Part shown: piece after piece, positions 6,838 through 8,921 of the stretch | Numbering within the stretch: the first letter of the stretch is position 1 | Layout of the letters: the number at the start of each line of letters is the position of its first letter | From: Winogradskyella arenosi | GTDB taxonomy: Bacteria; Bacteroidota; Bacteroidia; Flavobacteriales; Flavobacteriaceae | Assembly (NCBI RefSeq): GCF_003337305.1 | Contig: NZ_QPJO01000004.1 | Location: 310,001-374,000, forward strand | Direction of reading: 5' to 3' | DNA: 64,000 nucleotides | The notes under the pieces: generated by a model | Seen by the model: the letters and a program-made list of their open reading frames with translations, nothing else | Database searches by the model: none | Told to the model about the DNA's origin: nothing | Position numbers and translations under genes: made by a program

Positions 6838-7500
6838 ATGAGCATTACAAAACATTTAAAAGAAATAAAAGCAAGCCTACCGGAAACTGTTACATTGGTT
6901 GCGGTGTCTAAAACAAAACCTGTTTCAGATTTAATGGAAGCTTACAATGCTGGTCAGCGTATTTTTGGAGAGAACAAAATCCAAGAAATGGCTGAGAAAC
7001 ATGCCGAAATGCCAAAAGATATTGAATGGCATATGATTGGACACGTTCAGCGTAATAAGGTTAAATATATGGCCGAATTTGTGAGCTTAATCCATGGTGT
7101 AGATAGCTTCAAACTCTTAAAAGAAATTAATAAACAAGCCCAAAAGCACGACCGCATTATCGACTGCTTATTTCAAATTAAAATCGCCGAAGAAGATAGC
7201 AAGTTCGGAATGTCTGCCGATGAGGCTTCACAACTGTTAGCATCGGAAGAATTTTCAGAATTAAAACATATTCGTATTGTTGGTCTCATGGGAATGGCTA
7301 CATTTACAGAAGACCTTGAACAGGTTGAAAATGAGTTTCAATACCTAAAACGCACTTTTACTACGCTTAAAGCCGAGCATTCAGAACTTCAAATTGTAAG
7401 TATGGGAATGAGTGGTGATTATGAGCTGGCCATTAAAAATGGAAGCACTATGGTTCGTGTAGGAAGTCGTATCTTTGGATCTCGGAATTACAATAACTAG
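6838..7500 (+). CDS. YggS family pyridoxal phosphate homeostasis protein
   Basis: 220 aa. Single-domain PLP-binding TIM-barrel protein (PLPBP/YggS) that keeps free pyridoxal phosphate and amino-acid pools balanced; no enzymatic reaction is established for the family. The PLP-binding Lys is K25 in LVAVSKTKP. Other family segments are IFGENKIQEM, WHMIGHVQRNKVK and MGMSGDYELAIKNGSTMVRVGSRIFG, the last two forming the phosphate-binding site. It follows the DUF1015 gene closely on the same strand. Confidence 0.93.
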   Translation: MSITKHLKEIKASLPETVTLVAVSKTKPVSDLMEAYNAGQRIFGENKIQEMAEKHAEMPKDIEWHMIGHVQRNKVKYMAEFVSLIHGVDSFKLLKEINKQAQKHDRIIDCLFQIKIAEEDSKFGMSADEASQLLASEEFSELKHIRIVGLMGMATFTEDLEQVENEFQYLKRTFTTLKAEHSELQIVSMGMSGDYELAIKNGSTMVRVGSRIFGSRNYNN

Positions 7501-7556
7501 TTCTCAACGCTGTAGCAGTTTTCTGCCTACGATTAAACCTTAAAATTTATAACGTT

Positions 7557-8921
7557 ATTTACGCAATATTAGACATAGAAACCACCGGTGGTAAGTTCAA
7601 TGAAGAAGGCATAACTGAGATAGCAATTTATAAATTTGATGGTCACGCCATTGTAGATCAATTTATTTCTTTGGTTAATCCGGAACGCGAAATTCAACCT
7701 TTTGTCGTTAATTTAACAGGCATAAATTCTAATATGCTTAAAAATGCGCCTAAGTTTTACGAAGTTGCCAAGCGCATTGTTGAAATTACGGAAGACTGCA
7801 TCATCGTGGCCCATAATTCTTCTTTTGATTATAGAATTCTAAAGACCGAATTTAAACGTTTAGGCTTTCCTTTTAAACGCAAGACGCTTTGTACTGTTGA
7901 GCTCTCTCAACAACTTATTCCAGATATGCCCTCTTACAGTTTGGGTAAACTCACTCGTTCTTTAGGCATACCTATGAGCGATAGACACCGTGCTAATGGT
8001 GATGCTATGGCTACGGTGAAGTTGTTTAAGATGTTGCTTCATAAAGATTTAGATAAAGCTATTGTTAAGGACGCTATTAAGGTGGAAAAAAAATCGAGCA
8101 TAGCGCCTAATTTAAAAGATATCATTGACAACTTACCTTCAGATACAGGCGTGTATTACATCCATAATGCGGATGGCGAAATTATCTATATAGGTAAGAG
8201 TAATAATATAAGAAAACGGATTGTTCAGCATTTTACGGGTACCAATTCAAAATCAAAAAAAATACAACGCTTAGTCAATACCGTAACCTATGAAAAAACG
8301 GGTAGTGAACTCGCCGCGTTATTAAAAGAAAGTGCTGAAATAAAAACGCATAAGCCTATCTTTAATAGAGCATTAAGACGTACCATTTTTACACATGCCT
8401 TATACCAATATACAGACAGCAACGGCTATATTAATTTAGAAATAGACAAATCTAATCGTCAAGAAACGCCTATAATCACTTTTAGTACACGCTTAAGTGC
8501 TAAAAACTTTTTGTTTAAAGCGGTGGATCAATTTGAGCTTTGTCAGAAATTAACCGGTTTATATACTACTAAAAGCAGTTGTTTTAAATACGATGTTAAA
8601 GAATGCGAAGGAGCATGCATTAATGAGGAACCTGTGGCAGCATACAACCAACGTGTAAAGCAGCTTATTAACAAGTATAGCTACCAAAACAAGGATATGC
8701 TGATTATAGATCGAGGACGTACCATTGAAGAAAAAACCGTGTTTTTAATTGAGAACGGTATTTTTAAAGGAATGGGATACTTTGATTTAAATCATCAAAT
8801 CAATAATAGAGCTATTCTATCGTCAATCATTACGCCGATGGAAAACAATAGAGATACTCAGCATATCATTCAGAATTATATGAGGCGTAATAAGCGATTA
8901 AAAATAGTAGATTTAAAGTAG
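7557..8921 (+). CDS. DEDDh exonuclease / GIY-YIG nuclease fusion (Pol III epsilon-UvrC/Cho-like), apparent ATT start
   Basis: The nearest conventional start is TTG at 7671, but the frame is open upstream and encodes an intact exonuclease motif I (YAILDIETTGG, acidic residues D6 and E8). Starting at the ATT at 7557 gives 454 aa beginning exactly where I expect relatives (MYAILDIETTGG...) to begin. No ATG, GTG or TTG is available in frame between the previous gene and that motif. Motifs II (HNSSFD, about D91) and III (HRANGDA, H144/D149) complete a DEDDh exonuclease. GVYY and YIG near 198-213 form a GIY-YIG endonuclease, followed by a UvrC/Cho-like Cys-containing region (KECEGACINEE). Such proteins probably act in DNA repair; the substrate is unknown. 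Confidence 0.85.
   Translation: MYAILDIETTGGKFNEEGITEIAIYKFDGHAIVDQFISLVNPEREIQPFVVNLTGINSNMLKNAPKFYEVAKRIVEITEDCIIVAHNSSFDYRILKTEFKRLGFPFKRKTLCTVELSQQLIPDMPSYSLGKLTRSLGIPMSDRHRANGDAMATVKLFKMLLHKDLDKAIVKDAIKVEKKSSIAPNLKDIIDNLPSDTGVYYIHNADGEIIYIGKSNNIRKRIVQHFTGTNSKSKKIQRLVNTVTYEKTGSELAALLKESAEIKTHKPIFNRALRRTIFTHALYQYTDSNGYINLEIDKSNRQETPIITFSTRLSAKNFLFKAVDQFELCQKLTGLYTTKSSCFKYDVKECEGACINEEPVAAYNQRVKQLINKYSYQNKDMLIIDRGRTIEEKTVFLIENGIFKGMGYFDLNHQINNRAILSSIITPMENNRDTQHIIQNYMRRNKRLKIVDLK

Follow-up and report, generated by a model that had tools for sequence, protein, structure and literature searches.

Locus and encoded protein

The window, which is the whole 64,000-nucleotide stretch of DNA that was analysed, comes from contig C4 of a 3.67-Mb Winogradskyella genome (Flavobacteriaceae). 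The gene of interest encodes a DEDDh exonuclease fused to a GIY-YIG domain, and lies downstream of a gene that we take, from its sequence, to be of the YggS type and that was used as a control (Table 1). The nuclease frame is open from position 7497, with no ATG, GTG or TTG in the 20 codons from 7497 to 7556. Behind the ATT at 7557 follow the codons TAC, GCA, ATA, TTA, GAC, ATA, GAA and ACC (YAILDIET); the TTG at 7671 is downstream of both Asp6 (7572–7574) and Glu8 (7578–7580). The initial annotation had proposed that no standard start precedes exonuclease motif I, and this is borne out, as the upstream TAA is followed by no ATG, GTG or TTG until 7671. A second in-frame ATT at 7545 (AAA ATT TAT) is absent from the upstream sequences of relatives.

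Table 1. Coordinates of the features discussed, with the basis for each.
Feature	Position	Strand	Basis or remark
Upstream neighbour, taken to be YggS-type; control gene	6838..7500	+	Starts at ATG
In-frame TAA, upstream bound of the nuclease frame	7494..7496	+	Within the 3' end of the YggS-type gene
A-rich place at −14 to −10 before the start	7543..7547	+	AAATT in the window
DEDDh exonuclease/GIY-YIG fusion CDS	7557..8921	+	Read from ATT, 454 codons and a stop; alignment with full-length orthologues begins at residue 1
Start codon ATT	7557..7559	+	66/66 same-genus starts read are ATT, ATA or ATC; orthologue codon counts
Element conserved at synonymous sites, TACGCAATAYTAGACATAGAAACC	7560..7583	+	Codons 2–8 most constrained
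Asp6-Ile7-Glu8 codons, exonuclease motif I	7572..7580	+	Invariant in a 15-protein alignment; aligned with DLE of 8zef
Nearest TTG after the start (codon 39)	7671..7673	+	Start for callers limited to ATG/GTG/TTG
GIY-YIG domain	8148..8357	+	Pfam; Foldseek match to UvrC N-terminal domain
infC loci	G000:C3:2707-3213 (L309) and L266-L325		Start at ATA in all parsed loci

Both domains were recognized by Pfam, with RNase_T (PF00929) at residues 4–157 (E 1.1e-32) and GIY-YIG (PF01541) at residues 198–267 (E 4.8e-11). Foldseek matched the GIY-YIG part to the UvrC N-terminal domain 1yd6_C (E 5.2e-07, TM by target 0.85), and the exonuclease fold to the exonuclease domains of DinG, PolC and DnaQ. In domain order and folds the protein resembles the known DEDDh exonuclease-GIY-YIG fusions (PRK07883; DinG/PolC-type plus UvrC/Cho-type), but it scores below the curated cut-off of NCBIfam PRK07883.1-4 (256.8 against 495 bits), with around 454 residues against the 563 positions of the model. 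Y2, D6 and E8 are invariant in an alignment of 15 proteins, and by analogy with the family Asp6 and Glu8 would be metal ligands. A structure model based on an alignment of 15 relatives (mean pLDDT 77.3, pTM 0.55, with residues 10–17 and 44–55 below 50) places both within its first strand, formed by residues 2–9.

The start codon among relatives

The proposal that the ATT at 7557 occupies the place expected of the initiator Met could be assessed by alignment with orthologues, as the initial annotation had recommended. The search of the genus covered 68 genomes and yielded 66 orthologues with a readable start, the window's own copy being counted once; G040 and G049, both less than 90% complete, gave weak matches only and were left out of the count. 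At the conserved Met position all 66 orthologues carry an AUH codon (ATT in 42, ATA in 15 and ATC in 9), and ATG is found in none, in agreement with the proposal.

Across the family, 239 of 299 genomes were matched with an E value no worse than 1e-120. The 88 loci read outside the genus, a sample weighted to the closer relatives among these 239, start with TTG (39), ATT (32), ATG (6), GTG (5), ATC (4), ATA (1) and AAC (1), and another 108 loci (80 named, many from genomes already counted) with ATT (49), TTG (21), ATC (13), ATG (13), ATA (11) and GTG (1). When pooled, 213 non-identical orthologues remain, mostly from Flavobacteriaceae (three of the 18 ATG rows come from other families of the order), with ATT in 94, TTG in 56, ATC in 21, ATA in 18, ATG in 18, GTG in 5 and AAC in 1. 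The AAC orthologue has a TTG directly before it, and the other 212 of the 213 hold initiation-competent codons at this place. As far as these aligned sequences go, AUG is avoided genus-wide and largely family-wide, UUG being also common. This extends what was initially noted from the window. In one congener the orthologue is broken into two frames that overlap, with a TAA in frame (G026:C180:36782-38139, of which L051 is the 5' part), through a frameshift or an assembly fault.

The codons used for other residues are informative as well. Wherever the aligned residue reads as Leu the codon is TTG (56/56), a codon used for 12% of Leu residues in the rest of the gene, and this bias identifies the place as a start codon. 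Similarly, Val at this place is always GTG (5/5), against 14% of Val codons elsewhere in the gene.

Along a tree built from 132 full-length rows we counted no fewer than 40 changes of the exact codon and 24 of its class, with ATG present in 8 rows; in a tree of 30 genus rows there were at least eight changes among ATT, ATC and ATA, and none to ATG. From the codon changes in both trees, the conservation across species goes beyond what relatedness would give. Of 126 non-identical orthologues of the YggS-type control gene from the same loci, 117 have ATG where the start aligns and nine a different codon, which in one is ATT. A paralogue of the nuclease, described below, has ATG at the aligned codon or just ahead of it in all 20 parsed loci. 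Homologues from elsewhere in the class, which at 33–45% identity do not separate orthologues from other homologues, carry ATG, GTG or TTG at the place or within five codons upstream in all 18 parsed cases (27 loci, 9 unparsed), and the AUG-less state of the nuclease gene therefore looks derived, to judge from these alignments.

A comparison of two congeners (400 kb against 399 kb) gave 286 non-shadow orthologous ORF pairs, five of which align over at least 20 residues before any standard start, and two of these five look coding there. One is the nuclease gene. The other is a release-factor-2-like ORF in G032 (L355-L374, joined position 95806, + strand), which by eye only we take to be prfB; its 35 residues before the standard start show 11 third-position against 2 other differences, and the known prfB frameshift, if it is used here, would account for this conservation.

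Sequence surrounding the start

The neighbourhood of the start is poor in competing start codons. Over codons 1–9, the 133 AUH orthologues have on average 0.11 out-of-frame ATG, GTG or TTG, against 1.49 expected from random synonymous versions of codons 2–9, and for ATG alone 0.00 against 0.60. The corresponding values are 0.21 for the TTG rows, and 0.94 against 1.51 expected for the 18 ATG rows. These scarce out-of-frame starts fit the depletion of AUG near starts described for Bacteroidetes (PMC6847099). Predicted folding, in energies that are crude, is weaker than in random versions for AUH rows (−4.69 vs. −6.69 kcal/mol) and for ATG rows (−7.62 vs. −8.80 kcal/mol). Taken as comparative sequence evidence, the alignments and counts demonstrate that this place is the start codon, that AUG is excluded from it in the sampled genus and rare in the family, and that out-of-frame starts have been cleared nearby.

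Upstream, A is frequent in the AUH orthologues at −13 (69%), −12 (80%) and −11 (73%), percentages that come from related rows and are not independent, whereas TTG orthologues have no A peak at −12/−13 (29–30%). The A-rich place before the AUH starts matches the spacing of the A motif reported at −14 to −11 in F. johnsoniae (PMC6847099). Words resembling a Shine-Dalgarno (SD) sequence (AGGA, GGAG, GAGG or AAGG) occur at −20 to −5 in only 3 of the 133, as expected in a group that makes no use of SD (PMC6847099). The 16S rRNA was not found in the genome of the window, and was found only in part in G013. Scanning for sigma-70-type promoters and terminators gave nothing above chance. In seven orthologues (L029, L048, L069, L095, L184, L208 and L227) the 7-base unit AACTTTT occurs in runs ending right before the start, a possible site of length variation.

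A conserved element after the start

At synonymous sites, no other run of seven codons in the gene is as constrained as codons 2–8, whose mean is 0.95 bits against 0.14 over the 291 scored columns. GAC6 and ATA7 are present in 132/133 and 133/133 of the AUH orthologues, in 48/56 and 54/56 of those with TTG, and in 8/18 and 12/18 of those with ATG, but with relatedness allowed for, the association of weak starts with GAC6/ATA7 comes down to five independent pairs and is not significant. After controlling for start avoidance and low structure (the null was drawn from 70 of the 133 sequences, and its double-filtered form from 38), the observed and expected frequencies were 0.99 and 0.37 for GAC6, 1.00 and 0.58 for ATA7, 0.82 and 0.32 for ATA4, 0.84 and 0.46 for GCA3, and 0.63 and 0.26 for ACC9. 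TAC2 is accounted for by start avoidance (0.98 expected, 0.95 seen). Judged by these frequencies, the 21-nt element GCAATAYTAGACATAGAAACC is not explained by avoidance of out-of-frame starts or by low structure.

Simpler accounts of this stretch were considered and set aside. Start avoidance by itself covers TAC2 and misses GAC6, ATA7, ATA4 and GCA3, and structure avoidance by itself fails since single-codon changes add 0.4–1.1 kcal/mol on average and the double-filtered null misses the element. A generic codon bias of start regions was likewise rejected, with ATA making up 16/48 Ile codons and GAC 1/9 Asp codons at codons 2–9 of 49 ATG genes of the window. Finally, a downstream motif shared between AUH genes was suggested by GCAATAC near the start of both infC and the nuclease gene in the genus, but infC has GCA ATT in 11 of 58 loci, and the likeness was treated as coincidence.

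In the YggS-type control, codons 2, 3, 6 and 7 show little constraint (0.02–0.25 bits), but codons 10 and 12 reach 0.97 and 1.03, which shows that single codons under constraint can also be found close to the start of another gene. The sequence GACATAGAA is also present in ATG- or GTG-start homologues of other families (L263, L264, L326 and L337) and in one ATG-start paralogue (L413), and is therefore not tied to weak starts.

These observations bear on the reading in which the start codon is secondary and the stretch behind it is a dedicated regulatory site, bound by RNA or protein or acting as a DNA operator, which controls the gene. The excess of GAC6, ATA7, ATA4, GCA3 and ACC9 that persists after both controls speaks for such a site. 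However, no partner has emerged, the genome holds one copy of the element and no near reverse complement of it at up to three mismatches, the occurrence of GACATAGAA with ATG and GTG starts sits poorly with a site of this kind, and the structure control depends on crude folding energies; we regard this reading as possible but rather unlikely. Of similarly tentative standing is the idea that the AUG-less, IF3-sensed start and GCAATAYTAGACATAGAAACC, acting at the RNA level, together make up a purpose-built translational control in Flavobacteriaceae. If true, the element would replace the SD help that weak starts receive elsewhere, and would tie the dose of nuclease to the state of the ribosomes.

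Proposed weak initiation and alternative readings

The reading that we favour, and hold to be highly likely, is that translation starts at the AUU at 7557, which the ordinary initiator tRNA would read inefficiently, giving a protein that begins with Met. The weak codon, which looks selected, would limit initiation, keep the two-nuclease protein scarce and make its synthesis sensitive to IF3; keeping the nuclease scarce is probably what the AUH start serves. IF3 discriminates against AUU-type starts, and infC encodes this factor, which senses its own start codon, an AUU or AUA with autoregulation. The likeness to infC drawn in the initial annotation proved apt, as infC starts at ATA in all 58 parsed Flavobacteriaceae loci of 60, and the remaining two, which were not parsed, likewise have Ile there in translation. 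With the gene for IF3 itself starting in this way, a shared response of the nuclease gene and infC to IF3 is plausible by analogy. The size of the effect would be roughly a tenth of AUG if reporters in S. aureus are a guide, where AUU and AUA gave around 10% of AUG in poor medium and, in one case, up to 30% in rich medium (PMC13009471).

Alternatively, the start may have decayed by relaxed drift, because little protein is needed and weakness was not itself selected. The codon does wander among five weak codons, with the many changes counted above, and a few lineages use ATG. Two further points weigh against the favoured reading: the 18 ATG orthologues indicate that the weak start is not indispensable, and AT mutation pressure could contribute to ATT and ATA, although not to TTG. 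Against drift, each weak codon is one base from ATG, yet ATG was found in 18 of 213 orthologues and in none of the 66 of the genus, the initiation region is kept free of competing starts and is little structured, the opposite of decay, and YggS in the same loci keeps its ATG. Drift without selection for weakness thus appears improbable.

A start at the TTG at 7671, or at some other codon downstream, with the frame ahead of it a fossil, is less likely still. TTG is an accepted start, and a shorter second product alongside the full-length protein is possible. A start there would, however, drop motif I, the model strands at residues 2–9 and 20–27, and nearly all of that at 32–39, and the loss of the catalytic Asp and Glu that had been predicted for such a start is upheld more widely, as every downstream ATG, GTG or TTG in the 133 AUH orthologues lies past both residues. 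The nearest of these is at codon offset 18 (median 50), and the first one varies in position, with offset 59 in 63 orthologues, 38 in 23, 49 in 23 and 31 in 16. Protein conservation runs through codons 2–38, with 49 of 50 residues before the standard start identical between the two congeners and 18 third-position against 3 first- or second-position differences, and the invariant Y2, D6 and E8 fall within this part.

A reading in which a hidden start, a frameshift or readthrough upstream yields a longer protein, with the AUH codon as one of its internal Ile codons, is extremely doubtful. The paralogue, a homologous exonuclease/GIY-YIG protein of 42% identity (G000:C4:65181-66503, or L002, and L395-L414), lends this reading some support, since it reads Met-Ile-Tyr or Met-Leu-Tyr with an ATG just ahead of the codon aligned with the AUH start. 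Among its 21 loci, 20 were parsed, with the ATG immediately preceding the aligned codon in 19 and coinciding with it in 1. Furthermore, 12 of the 133 AUH orthologues have an upstream in-frame ATG, GTG or TTG (in L014, an ATG 7 codons upstream). The other 121 have none between the upstream stop and the AUH codon, and that stop occurs within 50 codons in all 133 (median 7 codons) and within 3 codons in 25, with no upstream codon shared. In L029 a TAA stands directly before the ATT, and this stop, together with the rule that Leu at the place is always TTG and Val always GTG, led us to reject an upstream start, frameshift or readthrough. The layout of the paralogue hints at how loss of the ATG could give rise to an AUH start.

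Lastly, that the ATT reflects a fault of sequencing or assembly, or an isolated mutation of ATG, is scarcely credible given AUH codons in 66/66 starts of the genus and 133/213 orthologues from separate projects, and error in the assembly, about which the initial annotation had been cautious, is thereby excluded.

Relation to known systems and implications

The favoured reading, weak initiation at a conserved AUU, places the nuclease gene beside a small number of others. To our knowledge, few conserved AUH-start genes can be named (infC, pcnB, cvfC1 and ccpN). Like the nuclease gene, infC has an AUH start across many species and no AUG, but it keeps ATA in every parsed locus, whereas the nuclease codon wanders among AUU, AUC, AUA, UUG and GUG. 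In E. coli, expression of pcnB is said to have been found by Binns and Masters in 2002 to be held down by an AUU start; it too encodes a nucleic-acid enzyme, although the protein is unrelated. The S. aureus genes cvfC1 (AUU) and ccpN (AUA) have conserved non-canonical starts that lower synthesis and rely on extended Shine-Dalgarno pairing, in contrast to the nuclease gene and its rare SD-like words (PMC13009471). With an AUH codon in place of the conserved Met across the sampled genus and in most of the wider set, and with no usable standard start nearby (none upstream in frame in 121/133, none before Asp6/Glu8 in 133), the nuclease gene has, in its sequence features, the character of infC, pcnB, cvfC1 and ccpN, and the downstream element may make it a variant of this kind. 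A literature search, with few subscription papers within reach, returned no report on the start of this nuclease gene.

The finding adds a nuclease gene to this group, with AUH starts in 66/66 of the sampled congeners and, together with UUG and GUG, non-AUG starts in most of the sampled family. A protein predicted by start callers limited to ATG, GTG and TTG would lack the exonuclease motif. The gene also illustrates cleanly how competing start codons are purged around a weak one, has a conserved downstream element to test, and, as it belongs to a group without Shine-Dalgarno pairing, it offers a natural test of how ribosomes without such help find a weak start.
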